Shown piece after piece: positions 7,387 to 27,455 of a stretch of 37,781 nucleotides of DNA. The position numbers and the translations under genes are program-made. Source of the DNA: a virus. The notes beneath the pieces were generated by a model. That model was not told the DNA's origin and ran no database searches. It saw nothing but the letters and a program-made list of their open reading frames with translations. Position 1 is the first letter of the stretch, and the number at the start of each line of letters is the position of its first letter. The stretch is taken from positions 1 to 37,781 of IMG/VR virus record IMGVR_UViG_3300042462_000858. One strand, written 5' to 3'.

Positions 7387-7902
7387 TTATTTCTTATTAG
7401 AAATTAAGGGATTTTTGGGTTTGTCATTCTTTTCTAGGTCTGACATTTGTGCGCGAGCCTGCTGAAGCATTGTGATCTCGTCCTCGAGCTCGCCAGCCTT
7501 CCTCTTGAATTCTTGCGAAACCTGCTTTGCGTTTAGCTTTTCTATGTCTGGCAATTCTTGGGCAATCAGGCTTCCGAACATCTTGCCCGCATTTGCAATT
7601 TTATCCTTTGGTTGCCCCGGTCCTGATACCACTTTTTTTACTTCTGAACCCATAGGGGGTTTTTTCGCTAGATCCTTGGCTTTCTCTAAAGACTTACCGA
7701 CAAATGAATTCTTTTGTCTTTCGTCTTTCTCTTGCTCTGGCGTCTCTTTTGTTTCTAGCTCTTTAGACACTTTAGTTCCCGAAGCAGTCGGGGAAGTTGC
7801 TGAAGTGCCTGCGGTCGTAGACGTTGACGATTCATACAGCTCCAACGTCTCTAAAATGAATCTTCTTAAGACAAAAAAAGAATCCGTGCGGTTGTTTTTC
7901 AT
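7387..7902 (-). CDS. Putative internal head protein with capsid-targeting-like N-terminus, 171 aa
   Basis: The protein begins with a basic/hydrophobic helix (FFVLRRFILETLELYE) followed by L22-Y23-E24 before S25. This matches the T4 prohead protease rule of L/I-x-E cut before A, G or S. The remainder is low-complexity Ser/Thr and charged Lys/Glu sequence, then a helical segment near the C-terminus (AGELEDEITMLQQARAQMSDL). T4 internal proteins are built this way: a short targeting peptide removed by gp21 and a basic or charged body carried in the head. The role is inferred from this pattern alone. It is the first gene of the leftward small-gene unit and faces the divergent 152-aa gene across 61 bases. 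Confidence 0.6.
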   Translation of the reverse strand: MKNNRTDSFFVLRRFILETLELYESSTSTTAGTSATSPTASGTKVSKELETKETPEQEKDERQKNSFVGKSLEKAKDLAKKPPMGSEVKKVVSGPGQPKDKIANAGKMFGSLIAQELPDIEKLNAKQVSQEFKRKAGELEDEITMLQQARAQMSDLEKNDKPKNPLISNKK

Positions 7903-7949
7903 AGCTTTAAATATGCTCCCCGCACGTCAAAACAACCTGCACCTGTTTG

Positions 7950-7955
7950 TATAAT
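7950..7955 (+). promoter_or_regulatory. Candidate -10 element for the rightward gene; possible leaderless transcript
   Basis: A perfect TATAAT lies eight bases before the ATG at 7964, and no Shine-Dalgarno sequence lies between. A transcript starting at the usual distance would begin at or next to the start codon. No convincing -35 box is seen at 16-18 bases, so phage or host activation may be needed, or the match may be chance. Confidence 0.45.
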
Positions 7956-7963
7956 GTTTCGAC

Positions 7964-8422
7964 ATGAACATATTCGTTTTATCGGAAGACCCCGCTGAAG
8001 CAGCTGGCATGATGTGCGACAAACACGTGCTAAAAATGATCATCGAAAGTGGGCAAATGCTGTGCGCAGCTCACGAACCCGGAACTGCGCCGTGGAAACG
8101 CACGCACTACAATCACCCATGCACAGTCTGGGCTCGGTCGACGACATCAAACTACAATTGGCTTGTCGAACACGGGCTGGCGCTCTGCCGTGAATACACA
8201 AAGCGATACGGGAAGCTGCATAAATCAGAGGAGGTAATCCAATGGTGCAAAAAAATCGTGCCTCCAAGTGTGCCCGAGGGTCCCTTGACACCATTCGCGA
8301 TTGCCATAAAGGACCCCAAACATCACCTCAACTCAGCGGTGGAGTCCTACAGGGCATACTATAAAGCAGACAAGGCCAGGTTTGCGAAATGGAAAAACAC
8401 AAGCCCACCAGATTGGTGGTGA
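7964..8422 (+). CDS. Conserved phage protein of the MNIFVL-CDKH type, only rightward gene
   Basis: This 152-aa protein opens with MNIFVLSEDPAEAAGMMCDK followed by HVLKMIIESGQML. This matches a family I recall from many large phages as a conserved protein of unknown activity. Other conserved-looking points are THYNHPCTVWAR near residue 47, NYNWLVEHGLALC near 64 and KRYGKLHKSE near 80. His, Cys, Asp and Trp residues are frequent, so an enzyme is plausible, but I cannot assign a reaction. It is the sole plus-strand gene, and its stop faces the leftward CxxCxxCC gene with two bases between. The start has no Shine-Dalgarno but a TATAAT just upstream. The different strand suggests separate, perhaps early, expression. 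Confidence 0.8.
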   Translation: MNIFVLSEDPAEAAGMMCDKHVLKMIIESGQMLCAAHEPGTAPWKRTHYNHPCTVWARSTTSNYNWLVEHGLALCREYTKRYGKLHKSEEVIQWCKKIVPPSVPEGPLTPFAIAIKDPKHHLNSAVESYRAYYKADKARFAKWKNTSPPDWW

Positions 8423-8424
8423 AA

Positions 8425-8859
8425 TTACTTGTGTTGCATCATCTGTCGAAACGCAGGACTTCCAATGCAATGGTGCTTACCCTCAATCTCATAAAACAGA
8501 TTGTTGCCCGTCTCTAGTGCCCACTGGACCAGCCAGTTTAAACTTGACACTGTCAGCTTGCCCCCGGCCTCTGCCACTTCGTAGTGTGTCAATTCCGGCT
8601 TCATCGGATGCACAACTCTTGTGATGATGACGCCAGTCAGATCCGGTCTCATCCACATCGGAAACGTGTCCTCGGCTTTCCATGCACAATTGTAGCTTCG
8701 GCATGTCCCGGGCCGCTCTTCATAGATGGTGCACTTACCGCTCGCCAAGAAGAAGCAGTGCTTTCCTGGGTGCATTTGGTGGCCGTTTATATTTGCAGAC
8801 AACCAACCCTCACAGCACTTGGTGCAATCTCCACACTCTCTCAATTTTTGTTCAGACAT
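8425..8859 (-). CDS. CxxCxxCC (YkgJ-type) cysteine-cluster protein, 144 aa
   Basis: Cysteines at 9, 12, 15 and 16 form the C-x2-C-x2-C-C cluster of the YkgJ family, joined by C35, C43, C53 and C58 in the second half (SGKCTIYEERPGTCRSYNC). The family is thought to bind zinc or an iron-sulfur cluster; its reaction is not established and phage copies are common. GGAAG precedes the ATG at 8859. The gene overlaps the end of the HNH gene by eight bases (ATGTCTGA), so the two are probably translated together. A link to the neighbouring nucleases is possible but not shown. Confidence 0.82.
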   Translation of the reverse strand: MSEQKLRECGDCTKCCEGWLSANINGHQMHPGKHCFFLASGKCTIYEERPGTCRSYNCAWKAEDTFPMWMRPDLTGVIITRVVHPMKPELTHYEVAEAGGKLTVSSLNWLVQWALETGNNLFYEIEGKHHCIGSPAFRQMMQHK

Positions 8860-9184
8860 TCTTCCACCTCAAGATTTTTTGGTTGTCATGTACCCGCCAG
8901 TCCTCCTTCCCTAAAGGAGGTGCCTCGCCCTTTCTGTGCCACAGCAGGGCCCTTCCCATAAATGCGGTGGAGGAATATACTCCCAAAATAACGATGTCCC
9001 CAGCATGCGTAAGATCATGACAAACATGACACAACACAGCCAAGTTGCTGTTGTCGTTCGTCGATCGTGGATCGCAACGAGGAATGATGTGGTGGATGTT
9101 AAGCGCGTGAGGATTATCGAACCCACACACTTCGCACTTATCTTTTAGCAACTTGGGCTGCCCACGCTTTCGACGAATAACCAT
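8852..9184 (-). CDS. HNH endonuclease, 110 aa
   Basis: The frame extends to a TTG at 9199, but the ATG at 9184 gives a standard protein beginning MVIRRKRGQP. Neither start has a Shine-Dalgarno. The HNH core is complete: C17-x2-C20, the HH pair at 31-32 (IHHIIPRC), N47 in NSNLAVLC, then C52-x2-C55-H56 and H60. Thus one zinc is held by two CxxC pairs and the beta-beta-alpha-metal active site is intact. In phages such proteins are free-standing homing nucleases or packaging nicking enzymes. It sits between the methyltransferase fusion and the CxxCxxCC gene, not next to the terminase, which favours a homing or restriction-like role. The C-terminal part (GKEDWRVHDNQKI) follows the core. Confidence 0.87.
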   Translation of the reverse strand: MVIRRKRGQPKLLKDKCEVCGFDNPHALNIHHIIPRCDPRSTNDNSNLAVLCHVCHDLTHAGDIVILGVYSSTAFMGRALLWHRKGEAPPLGKEDWRVHDNQKILRWKNV

Positions 9185-9188
9185 GTGA

Positions 9189-9209
9189 GCAATGTACAAA
9201 AAACATTGC
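9189..9209 (-). promoter_or_regulatory. Hairpin between the fusion gene and the HNH gene
   Basis: A 7-bp inverted repeat, GCAATGT (9189-9195) and ACATTGC (9203-9209), encloses a 7-base loop. In the leftward transcript it starts five bases after the methyltransferase stop and ends four bases before the HNH ATG at 9184. It would cover the site where a ribosome binds, so it may restrain HNH translation, or act as a weak terminator. No U-tract follows it. Confidence 0.5.
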
Positions 9210-9213
9210 CAAG

Positions 9214-11244
9214 TTAAATCTTACGACGAAAAACCATGAACAGCTCGTGTCGAGAATCCCCAGAAGAGCCGGTACCACGAACAAAGTGATCTCTTCCAAG
9301 CGACATACGTAGCTCATCGACGACAAAAAGACCTGCGGCTTCAGCACACTCGATCGTCACGCCCCTCAGCGATTGTGGGACATTGAGCACAAGGCTTCCG
9401 CTTGACTTCAGGCCATGAGCCGCACCCTGCAGCGTCTTAACATAATAGCTGGACTTCCAACTATCGAAGTCTGGATAATCTCTCCAGCACTGACCGGGCT
9501 CGTCGTAGTACTGCTCTGCATCAAAGTAAGGGGGAGATGTAAAGACAAGGTCCAGAGAATCAACCTCTGGCGTCCATACTTCAGAACCAGACCGGATCAC
9601 TTGTATGTCCAACCCAGGCTTTTCTTGCATGATCTCTTTCGAGACGGCCCCTGCATCTCTACACATGTGAGAGCATGGATCTGTTCCAATGTATGTCCCT
9701 CTCTCAAACACGCTGGCAAAGCCCAACATCCTGGCAGAAAACCCGATGGACGGATCCCACACAACAGGCCGCTCTAATCCGCCGCAAAATCTGCGGTAGA
9801 TGTACGAAGCCCACACGGGCTTAAACCACGACACTTTATTACGCTGCACAATGAAACCATTCCTCACATCTCTCATGGCGATGTTGAATGTCTCATTCGT
9901 TGTGACCTTCTCACCACTCATCAATGAGTACTCATAAGGTTTCGAATTATTCAAACCCAACCTGTAAGACAGCACAGACCGCAAGGTTTTATCGACGTTA
10001 AACATCTTGGAAGGCCCGCCGTCGACGTCCCAAAACGACCTCACACGTGACTTTAACCAGTCACTTCCATGTGGGGACATGCTGAACGTATCAGACGATT
10101 CAAAGAGAGATGACATGACTTCTTGAATCGCTTTATCAGAAGGCGGATAAAACCAGCCCCAGTAGTCCACGTGTGCCCTCAGAAACTCTTCCACAATTGG
10201 TAGAATTGATTCCTTCAGGTAATTTTTGCCGTCGTCTCCAAGGGCCATCCTGATCACGGAGTCACGCGTGATAAGCGGAGTCGTCTCCCCCAACTTGAAA
10301 GTACCTTCTTTGATAACAACGCCACCTTTGACGACGTGGTAGGCCAAGCGCTCTAGATCAGATATGCCGTTGATGGAGCCTGGATCTATATCGGCGGAGA
10401 TCCTAAGCAAGTTGAGGCCCCTGTCTCGAGCTATCCTGTTCTTCTTCAGATCATTGGTCAGGTTCTTGATCTGGTCGGGTTTCCAGTCCAGATGCCTGTC
10501 TAAACCGTGCCAGTATGTACCGTCAAACTCCACGATGGTTTTTGTCGATGGAATCCACACGTCAGCATTCCACGTCTTCTCCCCGAAGTTAAACCACACC
10601 GACTGGGCAATCTCAATCCCGCATTCTCTTAACCTATTTGCAAACTCATCTTCGGCTTTTGATGTGTAGGTCGACTCTCTCCTCATGTTGGCAAGGCCAA
10701 TCTTCCTACCAAATTCAGGTGTGAACACCTTCTCACGGCGGGCGTCGCCCTCAACTCCCTCCCATGACTTTATGCGTGCGACGTGCTGCTTTTCTTTGTA
10801 TGCGCTATCTGACCATAGCTCTTTTCTGATCTCAGAAAGATGCTGCTTCACCTCGTCCTTAGCAAGGCCGATGCTTACTCTATCGCTTATCTTTTTTGCG
10901 ATGACACCTTTCTTTTCTTTATAAGATCGACGAATGGCTTCATTTCTTTTTTCGACCTGCTCACGCGTGAATTCAGGCTGCTTCGCACGAAAACCCGACT
11001 TGTTGTGGCCTGTGATGTAAGAATTGAACTGGTATTTTGTCTCGTGCCACTCAACTTTCCCGCCACATCCGCAACTGCATTCAGGGACGTTGCCCTGCAG
11101 AAAATGCTTCAACACATAGTTCTTCAACCCACCGACATGCGGATGAGATCTCGTCATGTGATTTCCTAACGAACGTCGATTGCTGCAGGTACGTCCGCAC
11201 TCTATGCAATTTTGTTCTACGTTATCAATGCCAGTTTTGGTCAT
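9214..11244 (-). CDS. Zinc-finger / Vsr-like endonuclease / DNA methyltransferase fusion, 676 aa
   Basis: Three parts are visible. (1) A C2H2 finger with C13-x2-C16-x12-H29-x4-H34, then a CSCGC cluster (56-60) and GH at 79-80, a DNA-binding arrangement seen in phage homing-type nucleases. (2) A Vsr-type nuclease core at about 195-285: E198/E200, D228 in WNADVWIP, VEFDGTYWHG (238-247) and the closing helix KKNRIARDRGLNLLRIS, matching the EDxHD/Vsr fold. (3) A C-terminal adenine/cytosine N-methyltransferase, with SAM motif I DPSIGFSARMLGF (497-509), an acidic TDP near 521-523 and catalytic motif IV TSPPYF (569-574). Nuclease and methylase in one chain could be a self-protecting restriction-like or homing enzyme; this is inference. 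The frame is open to a GTG at 11271 with no Shine-Dalgarno; I chose the first ATG. Hairpin terminators isolate it from gp23 upstream. Confidence 0.85.
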   Translation of the reverse strand: MTKTGIDNVEQNCIECGRTCSNRRSLGNHMTRSHPHVGGLKNYVLKHFLQGNVPECSCGCGGKVEWHETKYQFNSYITGHNKSGFRAKQPEFTREQVEKRNEAIRRSYKEKKGVIAKKISDRVSIGLAKDEVKQHLSEIRKELWSDSAYKEKQHVARIKSWEGVEGDARREKVFTPEFGRKIGLANMRRESTYTSKAEDEFANRLRECGIEIAQSVWFNFGEKTWNADVWIPSTKTIVEFDGTYWHGLDRHLDWKPDQIKNLTNDLKKNRIARDRGLNLLRISADIDPGSINGISDLERLAYHVVKGGVVIKEGTFKLGETTPLITRDSVIRMALGDDGKNYLKESILPIVEEFLRAHVDYWGWFYPPSDKAIQEVMSSLFESSDTFSMSPHGSDWLKSRVRSFWDVDGGPSKMFNVDKTLRSVLSYRLGLNNSKPYEYSLMSGEKVTTNETFNIAMRDVRNGFIVQRNKVSWFKPVWASYIYRRFCGGLERPVVWDPSIGFSARMLGFASVFERGTYIGTDPCSHMCRDAGAVSKEIMQEKPGLDIQVIRSGSEVWTPEVDSLDLVFTSPPYFDAEQYYDEPGQCWRDYPDFDSWKSSYYVKTLQGAAHGLKSSGSLVLNVPQSLRGVTIECAEAAGLFVVDELRMSLGRDHFVRGTGSSGDSRHELFMVFRRKI

Positions 11245-11304
11245 GTACAAATATACCACATGCACAATCACGTGTTTAAGCCCAGCAACGTTGAGAAAAC
11301 AAAA

Positions 11305-11324
11305 AGGCTGCCCTTCGGTAGCCT
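11305..11324 (-). terminator. Second terminator hairpin after the capsid gene
   Basis: In the leftward transcript AGGCTACC and GGCAGCCT form an 8-bp stem with one A-C mismatch and a GAAG loop, followed at once by TTTTTG. It lies 33 bases beyond the first terminator and probably catches read-through. Confidence 0.7.
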
Positions 11325-11356
11325 CAAGCTAGACAGCTATTAAATGTAAACTAAAA

Positions 11357-11380
11357 AAGGGCCACTTTTTAGTGGCCCTT
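11357..11380 (-). terminator. Main intrinsic terminator after the major capsid gene
   Basis: A perfect 10-bp GC-rich stem, AAGGGCCACT and AGTGGCCCTT, has a four-base loop and is followed by TTTT in the leftward transcript. It lies 32 bases past the gp23 stop. The position fits strong transcription ending after the capsid gene. Confidence 0.9.
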
Positions 11381-11384
11381 GATT

Positions 11385-11406
11385 ATGTTATCGTATTAGA
11401 TAACAT
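11385..11406 (-). other. AT-rich hairpin just after the capsid stop codon
   Basis: ATGTTATC (11385-11392) and GATAACAT (11399-11406) form an 8-bp stem with a 6-base loop, six bases past the gp23 stop. It is too AT-rich to be a strong terminator. It may protect the 3' end of the capsid mRNA or add to the tandem terminators. Confidence 0.55.
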
Positions 11407-11411
11407 TCATA

Positions 11412-13322
11412 TCATATCACGTTCATGTCGAGGACGGTGACGGTCCCGTAAAAGTCGCTACGGATGACCTTCTTGCCGTACCTTGTCATAACGCCCTTGC
11501 GCGGCGTGAAGTCCTCAGGAGCGAAGATCGTCGGTGTGACGATGAGCGGAACGTAAGGAGCATACACGTAGCCGGTCTCGAGGTAGCTGCCGCCCTTGTA
11601 GCCGATGAGGATCTTGTTACGTGCGAAGTAAGGATCCTTGTAGACCGTGAAGCGGTTCGAGACAGTACCGATGGCCTCGGCGCCGATTGTGAACGGCGAA
11701 CCGACCTGGCCCTCACCGTCGATCGAGAACTTCGGCTTGTAGAGGACCGACGACTCGAGGATGGTGCAGACGTCCGGACCGGTGACCAAGAAGTTGGCCG
11801 AGCCGCGGAGTGTCTTACGGTGGATGGTGTTGGCAACGTCGATGATTGTCTCGACGAGGGTCTCGTACCACTCACGAACTGTACCGGTGAACTGCGGTCC
11901 GATCTGGAACGAGTTCGCGAGGCTCTGACGCTCGCCGGTGACCTTGTTGACGAAGCGACCTGGGCTGCGCGACCAGTAGTAGTTGGCGCCGTTGGCTGTC
12001 GTCACGAGGTCGCTCAGGATCTCGCGGTCGATCTCGAGGGCGATCTGCTCTGAGAGGATCGACGTGAGCTCAACCTCGGCGTCCATCGAGTGATAGGCGT
12101 TGAGGTCCTGTGCGAGCTCGGGCGACCAACGAGCACGAAGCTTGCGGGTCGTGGCCGTGATGGCGATCGACTCGATCTTGATGTCGATCTCGGGGATCAC
12201 AGGGGTCGGGGTGCCAGTGGCTGCACCGAAGTCCGACTCAAACGACGGGACCGTGAGGACCGCGCCTGTTGCACCGGCGTCGCCTGCCACGTTGCTTGCA
12301 ACGTCAGACTTGACGTAACCGATGTTACCTGTTCCGGCTGTGAGAACCGAAAGCCCGTCGGCACCCTTGATCAACATCTGGACGTAGTCACCGTTCAGCG
12401 CGTTGGGCGTGAAGGCAAGGGTTGAGCCTGTGCCTGTCAAAGTACCGCGGCGGTTGAGGCGGCGAAGGTTGAGAACTCCCTTACCTGACTGGTAAGCCTC
12501 GCCCCACTCCGTTGCATTGGCACCGAAGCCTGAGACGACGGCAAGCTGATCAACAGCGAGGAGGTCCATGCTTGCGGGGAGCAAGCTTGTCTTAACGTAG
12601 ACAAAAAGTGCATCAAGCTCGTTCAAAGCAAGGGCATTCTCAAGCTGCGGATCATAGCCCAGCAGACGAGCGTTTGTGCCGCTGAAGGACGTGAGCGAAC
12701 CGAGGACCGTGCCGTCCGACCATGCGCCATTGGCACCGGCATATGAACCTGAGAAGACGTTTGCACCAGCAAAGTTGACCTGGGCCGTGCCATGAACCTT
12801 CGAGTAACCGACGTTGACGAGATCGTACATGCCGCCAGCCGCGAGCGATCCTGACTGGATACCCTTGCCTGTGGGGGCGTTGTAGATCGACTGACCGCGC
12901 TGGTATGTGGCTGACGTGCCGCCTGTCAGATCTTCGCCCTGATCGCCGCCGACGTTCGAGCCGTAGGTGTAATCTAGGTAGAAGATAAGACCCGAGGGGA
13001 GCGACATCGGCTGGATCGAGACGAGCTCGTTGGCGACGAGGCCGCCGAACACACGACGAACGATCGGGAACGCGATGTTGCTGAAGCCCTGGATCTGACC
13101 TGACGAAGCGAGATTGCCGCCGCCTGTCGAGAGTGAGTTGGACTCCTTGAGGACCTGAGCTGCCTGGTTCTCCAGGAGCTGTGACATGGTCTCACGACGA
13201 ACGCCGTCGAGACCGCGGAGAAGGCCTGTACGGCTCCACTTCTCCACCAAACGGGCACGCTCAGCACCGACGTGCCTCTCGCGAATGCCCTGAGCTAACT
13301 GATCTAGTGTAAACTGCTTCAT
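11412..13322 (-). CDS. 23: Major capsid protein (T4 gp23-like)
   Basis: At 636 aa it is longer than T4 gp23 (521 aa). The start at 13322 has GGAG eight bases upstream. The gp23 pattern is clear: LLENQAAQVLKES near 49-61, IVRRVFGGLVANELVSIQPM near 88-107, then LPSGLIFYLDYTYG. L58-K59-E60 before S61 fits the prohead protease rule and lies where T4 gp23 is cut (after E65), so about 60 residues are probably removed on head maturation. The extra length probably sits in an insertion domain in the middle (Gly/Ala/Ser-rich, about 160-380). The gene is visibly richer in G+C, with C/G-ending codons (GTC, ATC, GAC, AAG), than the genes around it, as expected for the most highly expressed gene. It follows the scaffold gene by 44 bases. 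Confidence 0.95.
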   Translation of the reverse strand: MKQFTLDQLAQGIRERHVGAERARLVEKWSRTGLLRGLDGVRRETMSQLLENQAAQVLKESNSLSTGGGNLASSGQIQGFSNIAFPIVRRVFGGLVANELVSIQPMSLPSGLIFYLDYTYGSNVGGDQGEDLTGGTSATYQRGQSIYNAPTGKGIQSGSLAAGGMYDLVNVGYSKVHGTAQVNFAGANVFSGSYAGANGAWSDGTVLGSLTSFSGTNARLLGYDPQLENALALNELDALFVYVKTSLLPASMDLLAVDQLAVVSGFGANATEWGEAYQSGKGVLNLRRLNRRGTLTGTGSTLAFTPNALNGDYVQMLIKGADGLSVLTAGTGNIGYVKSDVASNVAGDAGATGAVLTVPSFESDFGAATGTPTPVIPEIDIKIESIAITATTRKLRARWSPELAQDLNAYHSMDAEVELTSILSEQIALEIDREILSDLVTTANGANYYWSRSPGRFVNKVTGERQSLANSFQIGPQFTGTVREWYETLVETIIDVANTIHRKTLRGSANFLVTGPDVCTILESSVLYKPKFSIDGEGQVGSPFTIGAEAIGTVSNRFTVYKDPYFARNKILIGYKGGSYLETGYVYAPYVPLIVTPTIFAPEDFTPRKGVMTRYGKKVIRSDFYGTVTVLDMNVI

Positions 13323-13363: not shown

Positions 13364-13380
13364 GCATTACTTGGTAATGC
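13364..13380 (-). promoter_or_regulatory. Hairpin spanning the scaffold stop codon, upstream of the capsid gene
   Basis: GCATTAC (13364-13370) and GTAATGC (13374-13380) form a perfect 7-bp stem with a 3-base loop that includes the TAA of the scaffold gene. It lies 41 bases before the gp23 start. It has no U-tract and could be an mRNA processing or stability site that lets gp22 and gp23 be made in different amounts. Confidence 0.45.
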
Positions 13381-15055
13381 CGGCCAGACGTGCCCAACGG
13401 TCGGTCTCAAAGCCCTCGTTAAGGTTTGTCGACGCCGGACGTGTTGCCCTCGAGGAAGAACCGATGACCCTACGGCCCGTCGACTCTGAGAGGGGACGAG
13501 ATGTTCCCGCCAATGTCTTGGTGAGGCTCTCATATACAAGCTTGACTTCACGTAGGCTCTCGGCCTCATCGAGACGCTCGATGATCTCTGCCTTCTGCCT
13601 CTTCGAAAGCGACTCATTCTGGAGCAGCTTGTTCGTGTAGATCAATTTTGCGTTGAACAGATTCGATTCTGCCAACTTAGCGCGGAGGTTTGATTCGGCC
13701 TGAACCGCGTGCCTTTGGGGTGTGCCATTACGGCGAGCACCATTGTTTCTTCGATAGGATTCATGCTTAGGTGAAAACGCGACGTCGTCTTCACGCATAT
13801 CATCTTCAGGCATGTCCATCTCACCCACGCCATCCACGCCATCCATCTCAAGGGTCAGCTCTTGGTCGAGCCATGGATCACCATCGTCCTTACCGCCGCC
13901 GAAGCTCTTCAGCGACTTGCCGGGACCGTACCCCTTGGTCGAAGGAACGGCCTCTTCTGCGAGACGGCGCGCTCGATGGCGGCGGGCTTCTGCAAGGCGA
14001 CGGGCCTTCAGGGTGCGAGCTTCACGGATGACCTTCATGCGGCCGATCTCACGGCGAAGCATGCCCTCGTCGATCTCGACGATAAGGTTGTCTCTCAAAC
14101 GACGTGATTCCGTGTAGTGCCCTTCTTCTTGGGGCTCTTCTTCTTCATCGTCACCGCCTTCATCATCGCCGCCGAGGTCGCCGAGGTCGAGGTCAAGCTC
14201 TTCGCCACCCTCATCACCACCTTCATCACCACCTTCCTCGTCTTCCTCATCGCCCATGTCAAGTTCATCACCACCTTCCTCGCCTTCGCCAGAAGTGATG
14301 GAGATCTCGAGATTGTCGAGGGCCTCATCATCGAGGTCATCCGGAAGTCCGTCGATTGTGAACATGAGCTTCTTCTCATGCAGTCTATTCAGTCTATTTC
14401 TACGCATAATTTGCTCCTGAAGCTTGTTAAGTTCTTTGTAAAACGCCTCTAATGTCAATTCATACTCATTCTTCTTGTTGGCATCCTTGACAGATTCCTG
14501 GACGTGGTTATACATATTTTCCACGTTGGAAATCAGCTTCTTCACATCGGAGAAACTCCCACGTGATTCTGCCAGCAAAGAATACTTCGCATTCCTTATA
14601 CCCTCGCCCAGCTTCACGAGCTGGTGCTCGAGAGTGCTTTTTCTTGAAGAGGCGTTGATTAATGGAAGAAGGAGGTCTATTGACTCCATGTCCAACCCGT
14701 ACTCGACTACGCCGTCGAGAGCATCTTCCCCACCAAACATCGGCGGGTCTACGGGCGCTCCCATATCGTCGTCCATTCCTGCAAAGTCGAACGTCATGAC
14801 GTCGCCCTCAGCGGGGGGACCCATCATGTCATCTGTCATCAGATCCCCTTCAGGAGGGGGAGCACCAGGCTCTCCGAAAGAGCTTACGCCGAAGTCATCT
14901 TCGACTTCGTTGTACTCACGCAGCAGTTCTTTTTCAATTAAATCACGAATGCGTGGTGTCACTGCCTCGACGAGTGCGCGCTTCGCGTTGTCCTCGGCAA
15001 TTTCCTTCAGCTTCTTGGCGTCCGCCAGCGCCTCTTCGTAGAGTTGTTTCGACAT
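13367..15055 (-). CDS. 22: Prohead core scaffold protein (T4 gp22-like), enlarged and acidic
   Basis: The frame opens at a TTG at 15076, but the ATG at 15055 has GGGGAG four bases upstream. The N-terminus (EALADAKKLKEIAEDNAKRA) and the C-terminal helix (SNLFNAKLIYTNKLLQNESL) match gp22-type scaffolds, and the chain ends RWARLAGITK. At 562 aa it is about twice T4 gp22. The excess includes an Asp/Glu/Gly tract at about 255-315, a basic Arg/Ala-rich stretch near 340-370 and a Gly/Pro-rich link. L28-V29-E30 before A31 fits the prohead protease rule, and scaffold is normally degraded by gp21. It lies directly before gp23, as in T4. It would form the inner core of the prohead and be removed before packaging. 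Confidence 0.88.
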   Translation of the reverse strand: MSKQLYEEALADAKKLKEIAEDNAKRALVEAVTPRIRDLIEKELLREYNEVEDDFGVSSFGEPGAPPPEGDLMTDDMMGPPAEGDVMTFDFAGMDDDMGAPVDPPMFGGEDALDGVVEYGLDMESIDLLLPLINASSRKSTLEHQLVKLGEGIRNAKYSLLAESRGSFSDVKKLISNVENMYNHVQESVKDANKKNEYELTLEAFYKELNKLQEQIMRRNRLNRLHEKKLMFTIDGLPDDLDDEALDNLEISITSGEGEEGGDELDMGDEEDEEGGDEGGDEGGEELDLDLGDLGGDDEGGDDEEEEPQEEGHYTESRRLRDNLIVEIDEGMLRREIGRMKVIREARTLKARRLAEARRHRARRLAEEAVPSTKGYGPGKSLKSFGGGKDDGDPWLDQELTLEMDGVDGVGEMDMPEDDMREDDVAFSPKHESYRRNNGARRNGTPQRHAVQAESNLRAKLAESNLFNAKLIYTNKLLQNESLSKRQKAEIIERLDEAESLREVKLVYESLTKTLAGTSRPLSESTGRRVIGSSSRATRPASTNLNEGFETDRWARLAGITK

Positions 15056-15108: not shown

Positions 15109-15648
15109 TTACTCAGGATATTGTTCGACTCTCGTCGTGTTAAACTGGTTTTCTTCTCCCAAGACGTTCCGGCTCCAAACGCGAGCGTTTGCTGGCATGC
15201 GTGTGCCCGGGCCTTCTACATAAGAGCCCCCGATTGACTCCGCATATTCTTGAGGAGTTGACTTGGGGTTATTTGCCAATTCTTTCTCAACACCTTCTGT
15301 CTTACCCACACCAGGTGAGCTGATGTCTGGCACGAAAGCGTTCATCGGGTCGCCATCACGGGTGGGCTCATACGTTTCATGATTTTCGTTTGGCGGTGTC
15401 GATGAGGCATACTTACCCCCGTAAGACATGTCGACGCCCTCGGGAAACATTTCGGGGTCCCCGCTCTGATATCTGGCGCGCAGTACCTTGTTGCCCTCTT
15501 CCACGATCATGCTTTTTGCTTTAGCATTGTCATAATGATTGTATGCACTGCCCTTATACCCAGGGTTTTCTGGAAACAGCTTATTTAGAAAAACCTTTCT
15601 GGGAGAATTATCGTCTGAATATTTTGTGTATGTACCTTTGCCTGGCAT
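15109..15648 (-). CDS. Unrecognised head-region protein, 179 aa
   Basis: The ATG at 15648 has AAGGAG seven bases upstream, a strong site. The protein is hydrophilic, rich in Pro, Gly, Tyr and Asn (for example FPENPGYKGSAYNHYDN and SSTPPNENHETYEPTRDGD), low in long hydrophobic stretches, and probably extended. No known motif is visible. It lies between gp21 and gp22 genes, so a prohead core or minor capsid role is likely on position alone. Confidence 0.68.
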   Translation of the reverse strand: MPGKGTYTKYSDDNSPRKVFLNKLFPENPGYKGSAYNHYDNAKAKSMIVEEGNKVLRARYQSGDPEMFPEGVDMSYGGKYASSTPPNENHETYEPTRDGDPMNAFVPDISSPGVGKTEGVEKELANNPKSTPQEYAESIGGSYVEGPGTRMPANARVWSRNVLGEENQFNTTRVEQYPE

Positions 15649-15658
15649 GATGTTCTCC

Positions 15659-15904
15659 TTAGTTAGAATTTGTGAGTGACTTTACGATTCTTGTGCGGGT
15701 CTCGGCGATCTGAGCCAAACGACGGCGCAGACGGCCTTCCTCAATCTTGAGAGCCTTGACGTAATCTATCTTCTTCTCAAGTGAATCAGCGAACTCGTCG
15801 GCATCGACTTCTTTCGCCTTCACATCTTCTACGTCTCCCATCTTACCGAGCTTGCTGGCTTCGTCCAGTATCAACTTCTTTAACAATGTCGGTGTAAGTT
15901 TCAT
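15659..15904 (-). CDS. Small putative prohead core protein with gp21-type cleavage site, 81 aa
   Basis: A TTG at 15922 is in frame, but the ATG at 15904 has GGAG seven bases upstream. The protein begins MKLTPTLLKKLILDEASK: a basic amphipathic helix, then L13-D14-E15 before A16, a full match to the T4 gp21 cleavage rule. The rest is charged and helical (EEGRLRRRLAQIAETRTRI). T4 also has small core proteins (gp67, gp68) in its head cluster, though at a different point in the order. Internal head or core role inferred. Confidence 0.68.
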   Translation of the reverse strand: MKLTPTLLKKLILDEASKLGKMGDVEDVKAKEVDADEFADSLEKKIDYVKALKIEEGRLRRRLAQIAETRTRIVKSLTNSN

Positions 15905-15952: not shown

Positions 15953-16444
15953 TTATGATAATTTCTTACCCGGTGCGTCCATAAAGGCAAGATTTGCCCA
16001 CTTTGACGCAACTTCATCACCAAAAACTTCCTCTGGGCTGCCTGCAAAATGCTCCAGCTGCGTAACGCGAGAAGAAGCTTTTGATCCATTATCGCCATTT
16101 GATAACATCTTTGGAAGAGTTGTCATGGCAGTGTCAGCCAGAATGTCAGCCATCACGGGGTTGCCCCTCGATTCTTTTTTGATGGTCTCCATGATACTAG
16201 AAGAAAATCTATCTTGCTTCTTTGAGACGGGTGTGTCTAAACTAGAACTTCTTGGCCTTGCAAGGTTTTCATTAACATCGCTGCGTCTGTTCTGCTTGTT
16301 CTCAGAGAATTGAGAATAATTATTTGTAGAAGGCATTTGTCTAATTGGTCCTATTGATCCAAGCCCTTCCTGGAGTATTTCCACGATGCACTCTTTGACC
16401 ATGGACTTTAGCTGGGAGCGTGTCAACTTTATTCCGTTATTCAT
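15953..16444 (-). CDS. Putative internal head protein with targeting-like N-terminus, 163 aa
   Basis: The frame continues to a TTG at 16474, overlapping gp21, but the ATG at 16444 follows AAGGACGAGAGAA and is preferred. The N-terminus (IKLTRSQLKSMVKECIVEIL) is a basic amphipathic helix ending in L24-Q25-E26 before G27, which fits the prohead protease rule. The body is Ser/Asn/Arg-rich and looks disordered to about residue 90, then helical (MADILADTAMTTLPKML), ending with an EEVFGDEVASKWANLAFMD segment. Lying immediately downstream of gp21, it is a good candidate for a protein carried in the head and trimmed by that protease. Confidence 0.65.
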   Translation of the reverse strand: MNNGIKLTRSQLKSMVKECIVEILQEGLGSIGPIRQMPSTNNYSQFSENKQNRRSDVNENLARPRSSSLDTPVSKKQDRFSSSIMETIKKESRGNPVMADILADTAMTTLPKMLSNGDNGSKASSRVTQLEHFAGSPEEVFGDEVASKWANLAFMDAPGKKLS

Positions 16445-16461: not shown

Positions 16462-17115
16462 TTAACGCTTGCAAGACAAAATATCATTCAAGGCCCTATC
16501 AATCCTGTCGCTCTTGTTGAAGATTCGCTTTAGGTCTGCCTCTGCAATCCTCTTTCCCTCAGGAATCATGAATGCACCAGGAGTAGAGGGCTCGGACACG
16601 TAATCCCAGCAGATCAGCTGGAAGTCGTCCTGAACGATGTGGTAGTCACCCTGCTTCTTTGTAGAGCCGACACCTCGAGAAGAAATTCCGAGCTTCACAC
16701 CGCTCTCGACAAGAGACTGCAAGATCTTGCCAGATGGGGTCTCAAGGATTTCAGCAGTCCCGTAGACGACGCCGTTCTCCAGGTAAGCTTCGCGAATGAT
16801 GTGAGAGACGTTTTTCAAATTGACCACAGAGGAGTCTGGGTGGTCTAGTTCTCCTAGCGCACGATTTTCCATGATAAATTTCTGGTAATTTCGCACCTCT
16901 CTCTCAAGCAAGTGCATCGGGTAAATACGCCCGTTTTGATTCAGGACATCTGCCTTCTGCAGAACTCCTTTCATGAAAACTTTCTTGACAGCGGGGATCT
17001 CTACCTTGTTACCAGCTGAGTCCTCGACGAGTGTGGCTGGCTTTACAACTTCGGTCACTACCTTGTAGTCAAAGACATCGTAAGTGTCCAAAAGACGTTT
17101 TTCATTTATAAGCAT
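16462..17115 (-). CDS. 21: Prohead core protease (T4 gp21-like)
   Basis: The protein is 217 aa from the ATG at 17115, which has GAGGA six bases upstream; another ATG two codons earlier (17121) is less well placed. The gp21 signature is complete: LNQNGRIYP near 58-66, LGELDHP with H92, and GISSRG with the nucleophile at S145 or S146. These match the His/Ser pair of the T4 serine protease. The enzyme is assembled in the prohead core, cuts scaffold, capsid and internal proteins after L/I-x-E, and then degrades itself. Internal sites of the same form (HIIREA, SLVESG) are present here. Length matches the family. Flanking genes are the 287-aa protein (two bases away) and a putative substrate downstream. 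Confidence 0.93.
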   Translation of the reverse strand: MLINEKRLLDTYDVFDYKVVTEVVKPATLVEDSAGNKVEIPAVKKVFMKGVLQKADVLNQNGRIYPMHLLEREVRNYQKFIMENRALGELDHPDSSVVNLKNVSHIIREAYLENGVVYGTAEILETPSGKILQSLVESGVKLGISSRGVGSTKKQGDYHIVQDDFQLICWDYVSEPSTPGAFMIPEGKRIAEADLKRIFNKSDRIDRALNDILSCKR

Positions 17116-17117: not shown

Positions 17118-17981
17118 TCATTCCTCACTATCAAGTTCTGAATTTAACTTTGTGTACAACATAAAACGTGTAATCGTGTCATCATCTACATTGTTCAGGC
17201 TTTCTTCCAGAAGTCTGTCTTTTGCCTCATGTAGCTTATTAATAATATATTTGTTGTCAGATGATGCTGATTCGTACAAGGAGATTTTTCTTAATAAAGA
17301 ATCCTTCACTTCAACAAGCTTCTTTTGCACGATAGAAAGGTCGCTATTTGCTGTCGAAAATACGTAAGCCTTTAAAAGTCCCTTCTGGTCTTCCTCAAGC
17401 ACGCCTGTGTACTTTTCGTTTAATTTCTTTGTCATAACCTTCATCAGAAGCCTAGACATTCCATTGGATTCTTCGCTGATGAAGTGATCGTCTGCAGCTG
17501 CTTTCTCTGTCACAAGCCAATTTGTCAGTTGATCTTCATACGTGGCAAGTTTACCAATGTCTTTATTCCTGCTGGATTCTCTCCAGCTATTGAGCAAAGT
17601 CTGCACTGTCGCATACATCTTGTACTCATTGATCTGCTGATCATAAAAATTTTCATCTCGCAATGCGTGATTAATATGCTTGATCAATAAAGACTTTTCC
17701 CTGTCAAGAGATGACATGTCGTACGAACAGGCTGCACCCTTGGCTTCGCTGATGATAGACGCAGCGACTGTTGGAGTGCTTACCGTAGTCTTTATTAAAG
17801 AATTTATGAGTCTAAATTCTCTGTAGAGTTCGGTGCCTGGCTTGAAGTGTCTTTTAAGAATTCTCAAGGCAGCAGATGACTTTCTTTGATCACCCTCCAC
17901 CAACGCTCGAGAAATAGATCTCACAAGAAATTCATACAAAAGACCTGCATTTCTTTTTTTATTGTGCGTTTTGCTGCTCAT
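17118..17981 (-). CDS. Conserved head-cluster protein between portal and protease, 287 aa
   Basis: The start overlaps the portal stop (ATGA), so translation is coupled. The protein is largely alpha-helical and charged, beginning SSKTHNKKRNAGLLYEFLV. L27-V28-E29 before G30 matches the prohead protease rule, so a basic N-terminal piece may be removed. No catalytic motif is seen. In T4 the genes between portal and protease encode core proteins gp67 and gp68. This gene occupies that position but is larger, and I do not recognise sequence identity. A prohead core role is inferred. Confidence 0.75.
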   Translation of the reverse strand: MSSKTHNKKRNAGLLYEFLVRSISRALVEGDQRKSSAALRILKRHFKPGTELYREFRLINSLIKTTVSTPTVAASIISEAKGAACSYDMSSLDREKSLLIKHINHALRDENFYDQQINEYKMYATVQTLLNSWRESSRNKDIGKLATYEDQLTNWLVTEKAAADDHFISEESNGMSRLLMKVMTKKLNEKYTGVLEEDQKGLLKAYVFSTANSDLSIVQKKLVEVKDSLLRKISLYESASSDNKYIINKLHEAKDRLLEESLNNVDDDTITRFMLYTKLNSELDSEE

Positions 17982-20036: not shown

Positions 20037-20357
20037 TCAAACTACACTTTGGTCTGGTTTTGAAGCTTTAAACACAACCTTCTTAGGTTCTGCCTTAGGA
20101 TCGTCAATGTATGACGAAGCATTATTGACCATCTTCTCCATAGTCTTCAATAGCACATCGACGTGAGGCGATGCAGCATTTGTCGCTTTTATATCTAGGA
20201 CATTTCTTTTGAATGACTCTAATGCCTTTAAAAGCTTACTTGCCTCTGCTGTAAGCTTGACTATTTTATCAGACTGCGAATAGTCTTCTTTTAAAAGAGT
20301 CTGGATTTCTTCAGAGATGATTGACTTTATTCTGTCGAGCGTGATCTTATTTTCCAT
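20037..20357 (-). CDS. Small helical protein between terminase and portal, 106 aa
   Basis: The ATG at 20357 has GAGG eight bases upstream. The protein is helical throughout (IKSIISEEIQTLLKE, then AEASKLLKALESFKRNV) with a basic tail. The first 25 residues resemble the targeting-like N-termini of other small proteins here, but the possible cut sites (I-S-E before E17, L-K-E before D25) do not have A, G or S next, so the match is partial. It takes the place where T4 has tail sheath and tail tube genes (18 and 19), and it is neither. Function unknown. Confidence 0.7.
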   Translation of the reverse strand: MENKITLDRIKSIISEEIQTLLKEDYSQSDKIVKLTAEASKLLKALESFKRNVLDIKATNAASPHVDVLLKTMEKMVNNASSYIDDPKAEPKKVVFKASKPDQSVV

Positions 20358-20390: not shown

Positions 20391-22004
20391 TCATCTTAAT
20401 AGCCAATTGAAATCTATTCCATTGGCATTTTTGACCAGTTCTGGATCTCTTGGCTTTGAGACGTTGTACGGCGTAAAACCATGAATGTTTGGATTAACTA
20501 TCGGCCTCGCGCCATTTAAGTCACCAGGTAGTGTATTTGAGTCTTTTCTGTCTACGCGGGTGGCTTTTAGCATCGCCATTGCAAGCTCTCTCCCTTGCTC
20601 ATTTATCGCTGAGGTTCCGTTTGTGAGCCATATGCCAATAGCAAGACTCAAAATTAAGTCATCATGAGCATCACGTGAAGCCTGAGCTTTTGAGCCATGC
20701 CAAATGAATGCCTGCAGCTGGTCATAAGTTCTTTGTGAATATATCTTTATGACTTTGTTACGAATTACTTCTTCTAATTTCCCTAAAATCTGTGGACGAG
20801 TGTTCCCTTGGGTCTCAAACCCTGGTACAATGTCATTTCCATTTGGCATATATTCCCACAGATCGCCAGACGATTCTCTGTACCAAAGTCTTCTGTACCC
20901 CGAGTCTCTCAGCTTTACGCAAGTAAAGTAGCCGAATGTGTTTCTTTCTGGGCACAGCAGGGCAGTGTTGTATAGCTTCCCATATTCCATCAGCAAGTCT
21001 GCGAATTTATCTGGCGGTATTTTTCCCATGTACTCTGCCACGACTTTACAATCAAAAGCATCAATTACATGAAAGGCAGAGAAATCTGCGCCGTCGCCAC
21101 GCGCGACGTCAGCAGAAATGATATATTTTTTTTCTGGTTTTGGCTCTTCCCATGTCCACACTGCATTTGCTGGACCTGATTTGTGTTTAGGAGGCTCCAA
21201 CATGTTTCTGAGATATTCCATCTCGGTGTCTTGCAGGAATGTGTCTCCTGACGAGATGAAGTCACATAAAAACTCCTGAGCGACTTTCCTCTTGGGAAGA
21301 TTTCTCGTCTCTTTATCGAACCACTCCTGGTCGTGCTCTGGATGTACCCACCACGGTAGATTGATGGTGTTAAACTCATTTTGTTGAGCTACGCCGTCTG
21401 TCCACAACTTGTAATACATACCTCCCACACCATTGGGAGTCGAAATAATGATTGCAGAACCACCAGTTGAAAGTGTGGGGTACAGACCGGTCCAGATGTC
21501 TTCAAAATCTCTAATGAACGCTGCTTCGTCAACAATGAGTAGAGACAGGGCTTCAGATCTACCTGCATCAGGTGACGTTGGGATTGCAGTGACAGTTGAC
21601 CCATTTGAGAATCTAATTTGCTGCCTTGTTGTTTCAAACCTCGTTAAAAGCAACCACTTTGGAAGACCATCCAGCATGGTCTTCACTTTTTTGATGAAGT
21701 TCATTGCAGTCTGAAGCTTTGTGGCAATGACGAGGATATTCTTGTCTTTCTTGAAAATAGAGTACCAGACAGAATACGCGGCAGTCACCGTAGAAAGCCC
21801 TAGCTGACGTGACTTGAGAACTATATTGAAGCGGTTCTTTTCAAAATCTTTGACACAATCATCCTGAAATGAATAAGTCTCAAATGGAATGAGGCCGCGC
21901 TTCGGATGTTGGATCTTAGCATAGGTACGCATGAAATAGACAGGATCTCTTCCACACCTCAAGATCTCTTTTACTTGCTGCTCTTTGTTTAGGCCACCCG
22001 CCAT
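20391..22004 (-). CDS. 17: Large terminase subunit, DNA-packaging ATPase and nuclease (T4 gp17-like)
   Basis: The protein is 537 aa. The ATPase half has K64-SRQLGLST-72 as the P-loop, Walker B LLIVDEAAF with D159 and E160, and the coupling motif IIISTPNG (185-192). The nuclease half starts with ISADVARGDGADFS (D299, D304) and ends with HDDLILSLAIG, giving the RNase-H-like acidic triad. It drives genome translocation through the portal and cuts the concatemer. The P-loop lacks the usual Lys before S/T (T4 has SRQLGKTT). The Lys sits at the start instead, a layout known in other terminases such as lambda gpA. No small terminase (gp16) gene is evident in the window. The start lies three bases past the preceding stop. 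Confidence 0.95.
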   Translation of the reverse strand: MAGGLNKEQQVKEILRCGRDPVYFMRTYAKIQHPKRGLIPFETYSFQDDCVKDFEKNRFNIVLKSRQLGLSTVTAAYSVWYSIFKKDKNILVIATKLQTAMNFIKKVKTMLDGLPKWLLLTRFETTRQQIRFSNGSTVTAIPTSPDAGRSEALSLLIVDEAAFIRDFEDIWTGLYPTLSTGGSAIIISTPNGVGGMYYKLWTDGVAQQNEFNTINLPWWVHPEHDQEWFDKETRNLPKRKVAQEFLCDFISSGDTFLQDTEMEYLRNMLEPPKHKSGPANAVWTWEEPKPEKKYIISADVARGDGADFSAFHVIDAFDCKVVAEYMGKIPPDKFADLLMEYGKLYNTALLCPERNTFGYFTCVKLRDSGYRRLWYRESSGDLWEYMPNGNDIVPGFETQGNTRPQILGKLEEVIRNKVIKIYSQRTYDQLQAFIWHGSKAQASRDAHDDLILSLAIGIWLTNGTSAINEQGRELAMAMLKATRVDRKDSNTLPGDLNGARPIVNPNIHGFTPYNVSKPRDPELVKNANGIDFNWLLR

Positions 22005-22007
22005 GGA

Positions 22008-22391: not shown

Positions 22392-22427
22392 AGTAATCGC
22401 TCTCCTGTTCATAAATATTGCTTTCAA

Positions 22428-25872: not shown

Positions 25873-25906
25873 GCAATTTTACACTACACCAGCGTGGTTC
25901 AGTTGT

Positions 25907-26899
25907 TTAACTTGTGTACCGAAGTCTCAAACTTACCTCAGATATCTTTTCCAACTTATCAAAAAATATGTTTTCCCAGGTGGGCTCTTGAGCATTTGCC
26001 AGCGATTCTTTAAACTGCAATTTTGTCATGCTTCCTGCATCTTTAAATTCTTTTGTGTCTACGATTCGAACGTCGATATCATAGCTTTGAAATAGCTTGG
26101 CAAGCTTTGGTGTCTTCGCATACCACATGTCCATGTCCAAAGCTAAGGCGACTGGTGTGCCATGGAGCAAAATTTGAGAAAATAGCCTTGAGTTGATGCT
26201 TAAATCAGAGCCTAACAGCGCAGTTGCGTTGTCTCCGCACTTCATCAAATCAAAAGGCCCTTCGCAGATTATGAGCTGCTTTTCCCAATCTAGGTTAACC
26301 TCATTAAAAATGATGCCGGCCTTATCATCATCAGGATTGTCGTACTTTGTCCTTTTGTCAAAAGTGTCTATATTCCTAGCTACAAAGAAGTTAAGACTTC
26401 CTTGGGCATCAAAAGATGGCATGATAACCCTACGCTTCCATCTGTGCTCATTAGAGATACCAAGTTTATAGTGCCATGCATCTCGCAAACTGACCCCCCT
26501 TGAGTTAAGGTAAGACCATGCAGCTTTTACGTCGGGATGCTCTTGGCTTGCCATTGTCAACAACTTAAAGTCAGTTGGCAGGGGCGTTACTTTTTCTTTT
26601 TCTTCAACGTAATTGTCTTTTACGTTTTTTAAAGTGTCTGGGATGAATTCTGACTTATACCGCTGAAGTTGGGCTATCGTGCCGTATTTTCTGATCAGTG
26701 GCGCCAAAGAATGAGCTTTCCACCCGCATGTCCAACAATGGTGCCTGTCATCGTCGACACGAATCGCAAGCTTTCTTTTGTTTAGATCAGACGGCGCGCA
26801 GATAGGGCATCGAACGCTAAAATTTCTACCATTTGAAGCCAGAATCCCTTTTCCAAAAACGCTTTCAATGAAGGCTAGCTTAGCAGAAACAGTGTACAT
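25907..26899 (-). CDS. 61: DNA primase (DnaG type, T4 gp61-like)
   Basis: The protein is 330 aa. The N-terminal zinc domain has C31-x2-C34 and C55-x2-C58 (CPIC and CWTC). A TOPRIM core follows: E213 in LIICEGPFD, then ALALDMD with D255/D257. The segment WSYLNSRGVSLRDAWHYKLG near 128-147 is typical of DnaG-type catalytic cores. It would lay down RNA primers on the lagging strand with the phage helicase, which is not in this window. No Shine-Dalgarno precedes the ATG at 26899; instead a TTGAAC-18-TACAAT promoter-like pair ends eight bases before it. The gene lies just upstream of the gp47/46 fusion and 34 bases downstream of the ParB-like gene. Confidence 0.9.
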   Translation of the reverse strand: MYTVSAKLAFIESVFGKGILASNGRNFSVRCPICAPSDLNKRKLAIRVDDDRHHCWTCGWKAHSLAPLIRKYGTIAQLQRYKSEFIPDTLKNVKDNYVEEKEKVTPLPTDFKLLTMASQEHPDVKAAWSYLNSRGVSLRDAWHYKLGISNEHRWKRRVIMPSFDAQGSLNFFVARNIDTFDKRTKYDNPDDDKAGIIFNEVNLDWEKQLIICEGPFDLMKCGDNATALLGSDLSINSRLFSQILLHGTPVALALDMDMWYAKTPKLAKLFQSYDIDVRIVDTKEFKDAGSMTKLQFKESLANAQEPTWENIFFDKLEKISEVSLRLRYTS

Positions 26900-26907
26900 T
26901 GAAAGTT

Positions 26908-26937
26908 ATTGTATAAACTTGAATTCACATAGTTCAA
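26908..26937 (-). promoter_or_regulatory. Candidate sigma-70-like promoter before the primase gene
   Basis: Reading leftwards, TTGAAC (26932-26937) and TACAAT (26908-26913) are separated by 18 bases. The -10 ends eight bases before the primase ATG, so a transcript would be nearly leaderless. The -35 overlaps the 3' end of the ParB-like gene. The match is good but made by eye. Confidence 0.42.
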
Positions 26938-27455
26938 GTAACGTTTGAAGCCGCGCTGAGAGACACACTACTCTTAAACGAAAAAAACACTGGTACTTTT
27001 ATGCCGAGCTCTTTTGCGATAGCGAGCCGGTGATTTCCCTCTCCGACTTTGGCGACACCATTCTTTCCGATCTCGACATAAGCTGGCTTATTCGGGTTCC
27101 AACCCCGCGTTTTCATTTCACGGAACATGTGATCCCACTGGGATCGTCCAACGATCTGTCCTTCATCATCCATCGGGACGAAGTGCCACTTATCTTGATA
27201 TGATACCTTGTCAGACCCTAAAACCTCGGTGCCGCCCGCAGTGTCTGAGCTCCATGTATATTCTCGATAAGGCCATAGTTCCTCAGGAGAGTACATGGCA
27301 TGATATGCCTCATCAGGATCATATGCCTTATCACCAGTCGCCCACCTGTCAATTACCTCTCGAATTGTCGGAGGATCCTTGGGGGAAATATCGTAATACC
27401 CCTCGGCCAAAAAAGACTCGCGTATCAAGAGACGTAGCAGAGATGTTCCATTCAT
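26934..27455 (-). CDS. ParB/Srx-like domain protein with head-targeting-like N-terminus, 173 aa
   Basis: The C-terminal part has the ParB N-terminal-domain signature GVAKVGEGNHRLAIAKELG (133-151), the loop where ParB and sulfiredoxin-fold proteins bind nucleotide. Related phage proteins act as nucleases or NTP-binding enzymes. Which applies here is unknown, but GEGNHR is intact. The N-terminus (SLLRLLIRESFLAEG) is an amphipathic helix carrying two matches to the prohead protease rule, I-R-E13 before S14 and L-A-E18 before G19. It may therefore be packaged in the head and delivered with the DNA, as T4 Alt is; this is inference. There is no Shine-Dalgarno before the ATG. It lies between the RuvC-like and primase genes. 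Confidence 0.78.
   Translation of the reverse strand: MNGTSLLRLLIRESFLAEGYYDISPKDPPTIREVIDRWATGDKAYDPDEAYHAMYSPEELWPYREYTWSSDTAGGTEVLGSDKVSYQDKWHFVPMDDEGQIVGRSQWDHMFREMKTRGWNPNKPAYVEIGKNGVAKVGEGNHRLAIAKELGIKVPVFFSFKSSVSLSAASNVT

Follow-up and report, generated by a model that had tools for sequence, protein, structure and literature searches.

Terminal peptides shared by unrelated proteins of large T4-superfamily phages suggest a capsid-targeting system

In phage T4, ten N-terminal residues take internal proteins into the prohead core and are removed by the gp21 protease (PMC9026906, PMC3012670), which cuts after L/I-x-E (PMC9026906). The accessible text of PMC3012670 describes these proteins as diverse defence proteins in which the capsid-targeting sequence (CTS) alone is conserved. 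In phage P1, the first 30 residues of DarB are enough to carry a reporter into the head; in the available parts of that paper the Dar N-termini have no consensus and no separate scaffold is described (PMC9024508). In the giant phage SPN3US many inner head proteins are cut by the prohead protease; several of the propeptides exceed 100 residues, and the portion available reports no shared short tag (PMC5694885). The subject here is a virus contig of 37,781 bases (IMG/VR record IMGVR_UViG_3300042462_000858; the whole stretch is called the window) whose minus strand encodes a T4-type head module, together with a short N-terminal peptide (the tag) that several of its genes share with genes of related contigs.

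The tags are common to unrelated protein bodies, are terminal and run up to an LxE of the gp21 type, and the genomes that carry them have gp21 and gp23. Judged by analogy with T4, they probably represent capsid targeting of the T4 style that uses tags of its own and carries an unusually large cargo, in a lineage of large T4-superfamily phages that would load proheads by terminal address peptides. The T4 CTS proteins IPI, IPII, IPIII and Alt likewise combine a short N-terminal peptide, unrelated bodies, an L/I-x-E end, a gp21-type protease and a gp22-type core (available text of PMC9026906 and PMC3012670). Unlike the T4 CTS, the tag has 21 residues rather than 10, up to 28 tagged proteins occur per contig, and a second motif matches the scaffold's own C-terminus. 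Unlike P1, there is one consensus and a scaffold. The original prediction had read scattered window genes as proteins with targeting N-termini and prohead-protease sites on T4 logic; this idea was supported and reaches far beyond the window, while its list of genes needed correction.

The tag was seen on reading the N-termini of relatives, where one peptide starts many otherwise unrelated genes. The consensus, MKITxxQLRRIIREExxxLLxE, is clear on window genes 20037, 15953 and 15659 (window genes are named by their lowest coordinate) and weak on 26934. The tagged and flagged genes are as follows; a slash marks a predicted cut, and orthologs were counted over 87 loci, contigs and window.

15953..16444, minus strand: 15953, tagged head-cluster protein (putative core protein, 163 residues); tag score 29.8, 0 of 3,000 shuffles; orthologs in 75 of 87
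16367..16444, minus strand: N-terminal tag of 15953 to the predicted cut LQE/G; [LI]xE[AGS] in 54 of 56 orthologs
15659..15904, minus strand: 15659, tagged head-cluster protein (81 residues); tag 0 of 3,000 shuffles; LDE/A site in 3 of 44
15857..15904, minus strand: N-terminal tag of 15659, from the tag profile score against shuffles
20037..20357, minus strand: 20037, tagged protein between terminase and portal (106 residues); tag score 30.9, 0 of 3,000 shuffles
20286..20357, minus strand: N-terminal tag of 20037 to LLKE/D; [LIVM]xE in 39 of 40 relatives
26934..27455, minus strand: 26934, candidate cargo with a possibly ParB/sulfiredoxin-like body (Foldseek); weak tag, P 0.0007
27402..27455, minus strand: N-terminal peptide of 26934 to LAE/G; [LI]xE ahead of YY retained in 5 of 5
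7387..7902, minus strand: 7387, possible cargo, unproven; tag P 0.026, one weak relative
17118..17981, minus strand: 17118, conserved untagged protein of the head cluster, encoded between the portal and protease genes; 82 of 87 have orthologs; tag P 0.56

The comparison set comprised 80 related IMG/VR loci (numbered L) and six long contigs (contigs are numbered G). A 16-position profile whose training set was confined to the relatives of 15953, 15659 and 20037 was used to score 1,528 other proteins from G001-G006 and the window. At 12 bits it gave 36 matches in the first 30 positions of the proteins (45,840 positions) versus 10 in 321,599 internal positions, and none in shuffled N-termini or in reversed proteins. 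Among the 12 internal matches of at least 10 bits, two looked like tags behind a misplaced start and one was a second tag in an already tagged protein. At 8 bits the profile found 42 proteins, which formed 34 families after tag removal. One terminase N-terminus (L247) is a known false positive of the profile. One open reading frame (ORF), L126:12339-13265 (G005:192339-193265), carries the tag twice, at residues 1 and 80.

Independently of profile training, the peptide QLRRIIREE was back-translated and scanned through IMG/VR, giving 80 stretches. A Met lay at most 14 residues upstream, mostly exactly 6, in 78 of the 82 ORF matches (not deduplicated), and the reversed peptide, at equal degeneracy, matched no stretch of IMG/VR. 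The same scan of GTDB contigs (84,980 prokaryote species) gave 21 stretches, N-terminal in 2 of 15 ORF matches; most of the others fell at a single internal site in proteins of a Chloroflexi family. One of the N-terminal matches lay on a tag-bearing contig binned in a Halobacteriovorax metagenome-assembled genome (L399 / L172), which hints at predatory-bacterium hosts.

Altogether, 535 tagged proteins over 262 loci formed 225 body families. Families were clustered on the bodies; clustering of whole proteins joined 332 of the 535 through the tag itself. The 535 include overlapping loci (e.g., L059 and chunks of G005), from which the family count is free. Tagged genes numbered 3 each in G003 and G006, 7 in G001, 11 each in G002 and G004, 15 in G005, 19 in G024, 24 in G045 and 28 in G020. 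Many stood in islands: 20 within 47604-56953 of G020 and 17 within 28-9975 of G024. A Pfam search of 59 longer tagged proteins recognised few bodies: zeta toxin, HAD-like, M23 peptidase, SLT, PG binding and pentapeptide repeats.

At the DNA level, codons at identical tag residues agreed somewhat better than expected from codon usage (0.43-0.57 vs 0.35-0.45), several codons were used at fixed residues, and the 20 bases upstream of tagged genes were not conserved (0.29-0.32). With upstream bases unconserved and codons only somewhat alike, the signal lies in the protein. Among 50,697 phage records, 15953 had no match, the tag one match at E 3 and the gp22 C-terminal peptide (see below) none. The tag was absent from all of the cultured phage Mel-JY01 and from the T4 parts examined (1-50, 60-80 and 95-118 kb). 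In a literature search with subscription journals and preprints outside its scope, no paper was found that prints the tag peptide strings or reports proteomics of the cultured phage immuto; the nearest concepts were the T4, P1 and SPN3US work, and the accessible parts of PMC1524935 and PMC3622015 held nothing bearing on the tag.

The tag has a defined end. Relative entropy per column was 1-3.6 bits at columns 0-14, had small peaks at 16 and 20, and stayed at about 0.1 from 21 on. Column 20 was the Glu of an LxE in 69 of the 225 families, with A, G or S at P1' in 28 of these 69 (P 0.003). A strict [LI]xE[AGS] followed the tag in 58 of the 225 families, versus 16.0 +- 3.8 after shuffling and 9.1% of 2,877 untagged proteins. 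The looser [LIVM]xE stood at the tag end in 168 families versus 98.9 shuffled; some families were without it.

The tag also keeps company with head genes of the T4 type. The 40 tag contigs held gp21 in 15 cases, Gp23 in 16 and an HK97 capsid in none. Each of the 12 tag contigs of at least 150 kb carries both gp21 and Gp23, a count whose weight depends on how common gp21 is in IMG/VR contigs of that size; three of the six at 100-150 kb were without both. A Walker-type-pattern control for this base rate of gp21 matched mostly small contigs and was not used. Tagged genes like 15953 and 15659 stand beside gp21 at the same place in the distant contigs G020, G024 and G045.

In the window itself, terminase, portal, protease, scaffold and gp23 follow the T4-superfamily order (gp17, 20, 21, 22, 23), the scaffold being assigned by position and C-terminal motif only; the T4 head gene order is 20, 67, 68, 21, 22, 23. 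The module and its predicted processing sites are as follows.

20391-22004, minus strand: terminase
17978-19957, minus strand: portal
16462..17115, minus strand: gp21-type prohead protease (Peptidase_S77 / PHROG head maturation protease; phrog_207, E 2e-49; tblastn relatives annotated prohead protease)
13367..15055, minus strand: gp22-type scaffold with 10 [LI]xE[AGS] sites, from its position between gp21 and gp23, its site count and a C-terminal motif common to gp22-position genes of cultured phages
14963..14974, minus strand: predicted gp21 site LVE/A near the gp22 N-terminus; [LI]xE[AGS] in 51 of 56 orthologs
13412..13423, minus strand: predicted gp21 site LNE/G just before the gp22 C-terminal motif; [LI]xE[AGS] in 48 of 51 orthologs
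13370..13402, minus strand: putative gp22 C-terminal docking motif DRWARLAGITK, in the form common to cargo; 48 of 49 distinct gp22 orthologs
11412..13322, minus strand: gp23-type major capsid protein (Gp23 PF07068, E 6.7e-64)
13143..13322, minus strand: predicted gp23 propeptide (residues 1-60), which starts MKQFTLDQLAQGIRE, holds EKWSRTGLL and ends at the cut LKE/S; site in 43 of 44 orthologs; pattern common to the tag

A second terminal motif links scaffold and cargo. An RWxxLAGI-type motif ends 48 of 49 distinct gp22 orthologs of at least 500 residues, the exception running off its contig, and an LxE[AGS] lies 2-8 residues before it in 47 orthologs. Five putative tagged cargo proteins of G001 and G005 likewise end in an ERWQKLAGI-type motif. 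A scan for ERWQxLAGI gave 38 stretches, with 36 of 39 ORF matches (not deduplicated) at most 6 residues from the C-terminus and the other 3 at the N-terminus; ES before ERWQKLAGI was enriched (17 of 28 vs 7.6 expected). Contigs with the C-terminal motif carried gp21 in 11 of 18 cases, including all five of at least 119 kb. The gp22-position genes of cultured Mel-JY01 and immuto end in the LAGI motif and that of T4 does not. In G001, three adjoining candidate cargo genes (L089:2928-6253) have N-terminal tags together with the C-terminal scaffold motif; two contain DGHHRW and look ParB-like by eye, and one is HAD-like. A PDB sequence search with L089:5237-6253 returned nothing useful. The gp22-position gene of immuto (L453:25626-26867, NC_055915) is annotated as 'DNA polymerase phi-like protein'.

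Flavobacterium phage immuto carries a homolog of 17118 (27% identical, E 2e-11) and shows tags of its own. In a pair test of its proteins, 19 of 22,366 N-terminal pairs scored at least 40 versus 1 of 11,935 internal pairs, some of the former being ordinary paralogs or signal-peptide-like starts. Three classes emerged: MKKS[QE]Lxx[IL]I[KR] in three proteins; NFDLKKFLVENKLTxNSxLLKE in four, running into INE/G, LKE/G, LKE/N or VE/G; and LSEQFRRMQKLAGIITE/S in two, an N-terminal occurrence of the LAGI motif. Two of the three classes run into LxE/G or ITE/S. The tagged immuto proteins include gp076, gp077, gp080, gp083, gp092, gp094 and gp095. Applied to the T4 parts, the same test recovers IPII and IPIII, whose CTS is proven. 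In Mel-JY01 (L450), genes 18720, 19367 and 20500 share the start MIKLKSLLxEIISDRVWHLT; they are likely paralogs, perhaps with an N-terminal signal of their own.

In the proposed system, the main address would be the 21-residue N-terminal peptide on head-cluster proteins (15953, 15659 and 20037), on accessory proteins elsewhere and, weakly, on 26934; a second address, ERWQKLAGI, would end the gp22 scaffold and some cargo. If events run as in T4, the tags would bring proteins into the scaffold core, gp21 would then cut at LxE, and the freed body would remain in the head and be ejected into the host. The propeptide of gp23 is similar to the tag, and the two may share a docking site.

This resemblance has two parts. 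The gp23 of the lineage begins FTxxQLxxGIRE, with the spacing of the tag's ITxxQLRRIIRE, and EKWSRTGLL, which resembles ERWQKLAGI, has counterparts in 28 of 30 distinct gp23 N-termini. From shared spacing and resemblance together, cargo would enter by mimicking the capsid propeptide. The pattern [FILVM][TS]..[QE]L...I[RK][EQ] had 71 matches in 632,862 residues (2,525 proteins), with 0.15 expected in shuffled proteomes. Of these 71, tagged proteins account for 58, the start of gp23 for 9 and additional tag-like stretches of G045 for the last 4, with none elsewhere. This pattern was drawn up after gp23 had been seen; the tag profile, made without gp23, gives the window gp23 P 0.0067. That the tags copy docking segments of the capsid protein itself, with whole gene islands as payload, is a tentative suggestion from these likenesses, held with less than even confidence.

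Within the window, the motifs named in the original prediction were located in residues 1-30: LYES at residue 22 of 7387, LDEA at 13 of 15659, LQEG at 24 of 15953, LVEG at 27 of 17118, and IRES at 11 and LAEG at 16 of 26934 (residue of the first letter). LVEA of gp22 and LKES of gp23 (residues 58-61) also lay as claimed, and 20037, described as a partial match, carries LLKE/D, which fails the strict rule. The predicted enrichment held at one cut-off and not at another. In residues 1-30, 7 of 32 genes had [LI]xE[AGS], against means of 1.70 when the same N-termini were shuffled (P 0.0010), 1.72 in whole-protein shuffles (P 0.0012) and 3.05 in random internal windows (P 0.0052); at 25 residues the motif was found in 3 of 32 genes, no significant excess (P 0.11-0.43). 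One of the seven, 7964 (IIES), is on the opposite strand and outside the head module; it was rejected as a head protein, its match is probably chance, and one or two chance matches are to be expected.

Conservation differed among these sites. It was near complete for 15953, for both gp22 sites and for gp23 (counts above). The 20037 family has [LIVM]xE within 13 residues of the tag in 39 of 40 members and [LIVM]xE[AGS] in 29 of 40, the window copy being an exception. The 17118 site is strict in 26 of 58 orthologs and [LI]xE in 45 of 58, LVE/G often being LVED or IIDD. LDE/A of 15659 was rejected as a cut site, and so was IRE/S of 26934, which is not conserved among relatives. An IREA inside the gp21 fold is likewise kept in 43 of 63, so site conservation by itself is no proof of cutting. 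L/I-x-E on its own makes too weak a criterion; what counts as evidence is the shared peptide.

The list of proposed cargo changes accordingly. Of the 87 loci, contigs and window compared, 75 have an ortholog of 15953, 52 one of 15659 and 55 one of 20037, and most relatives carry these genes in the head cluster; on that ground the three tagged proteins look like components of the prohead core, not accessory cargo. Judged by its sequence, 26934 looks like the best cargo candidate: in 5 of 5 proteins [LI]xE directly precedes a conserved YY, while the peptide before it diverges. The best Foldseek matches of 26934 were Noc (E 0.022), PadC, KorB and sulfiredoxin (E 0.02-0.1), from a model with pLDDT of only 68.8, and a Pfam search gave no match. 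Its PDB sequence matches, two designed pentatricopeptide chains (lowest E 7.9e-14; 0 stretches passing individually) and weak ones, were dismissed as not meaningful. Gene 7387 is borderline, a possible cargo: its sole, weak relative (L004) has LNE/N, and the IMG/VR scan found none. Untagged and with its site not conserved, 17118 was dropped as cargo.

Several observations weigh against a capsid-targeting system. Gp21 was not seen in 25 of the 40 tag contigs, mostly fragments, yet three of these exceed 100 kb, and the co-occurrence of tag, gp21 and gp23 is an association, no proof, which could reflect mere phylogeny. A strict site is missing from 167 of the 225 families, and the periodicity of an amphipathic helix alone could yield LxE, explaining part of the LxE peak. 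Before ERWQKLAGI in the putative cargo there is no LxE enrichment ([LI]xE[AGS] in 3 of 28, P 0.24), just ES. Docking, packaging, cutting and ejection are inferred from T4. The tag is also unlike the T4 CTS in sequence, T4 ipI, ipII and ipIII scoring -7.1, -8.7 and -12.1; it would thus work like a CTS while lying outside the sequence family of the T4 CTS.

Of the competing explanations, a selected address to some other destination (membrane, replication compartment, host complex or oligomerisation of the tagged proteins) is unlikely and still the strongest. It would account for the many kinds of bodies, the families with no strict site and the position of most tagged genes in accessory islands far from head genes, such as that of G020. 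It sits poorly with a tag carried by conserved proteins of the gp21-gp22 and gp17-gp20 intervals, with its end at the gp21 rule, with gp21 and gp23 in all 12 large contigs and with a C-terminal cargo motif that is the scaffold's. That the L/I-x-E-A/G/S sites are meaningless chance in helical N-termini is quite improbable. The unconserved sites of 17118 and 15659, the matches in 7964 and inside gp21 and the count at 25 residues speak for it; the excess at 30 residues, the retention in 15953 and the 58 families against 16 speak the other way, and chance applies to individual sites but does not extend to the tag. Least plausible, and very improbable, are decayed duplicates of one ancestor or a DNA-level repeat at gene starts, either leaving a functionless shared start. 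Tandem arrays and the somewhat similar tag codons fit such an origin. Opposed to it are the unconserved upstream bases, the several codons at fixed residues, bodies alike in nothing by BLAST while the tag persists across distant contigs, and the lack of matches to the reversed peptide.

Other genes of the window lie beside or outside these subjects. Between the head genes, 20037, 17118, 15953, 15659 and 15109 matched no PHROG or Pfam family, save a weak, unconvincing PHROG match of 15659; a family search with the scaffold gene found no match, nor did a Pfam search of ten window genes. The untagged family of 15109-15648, starting MPGKGxYTxY, adjoins the scaffold gene and has a second copy in some relatives, L004 and L079 among them. 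A single ORF of 1046 residues at 22732-25872 matches SbcD (gp47) and SbcC (gp46) and is a fusion; L055 and L082 have two ORFs. Inserted after gp23, at 9214-11271, is a protein of 685 residues with a homing-endonuclease-like N-terminal half and a methyltransferase-like TSPPYFD motif. Two contigs have two neighbouring gp23 genes (G020:C1:176269-180150 and G056:C1:139350-142938).

If the tag is a capsid-targeting address, a 15-residue signature would mark which unknown genes of large environmental phages encode head-packed proteins delivered at the onset of infection. Hundreds of hypothetical proteins would become testable effector candidates, e.g., zeta-toxin-like kinases, HAD phosphatases, peptidoglycan enzymes and pentapeptide repeats, and the tags could serve as loading handles besides those of T4. 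Should cargo also mimic the capsid propeptide, dozens of unknown proteins would be delivered along with the DNA.

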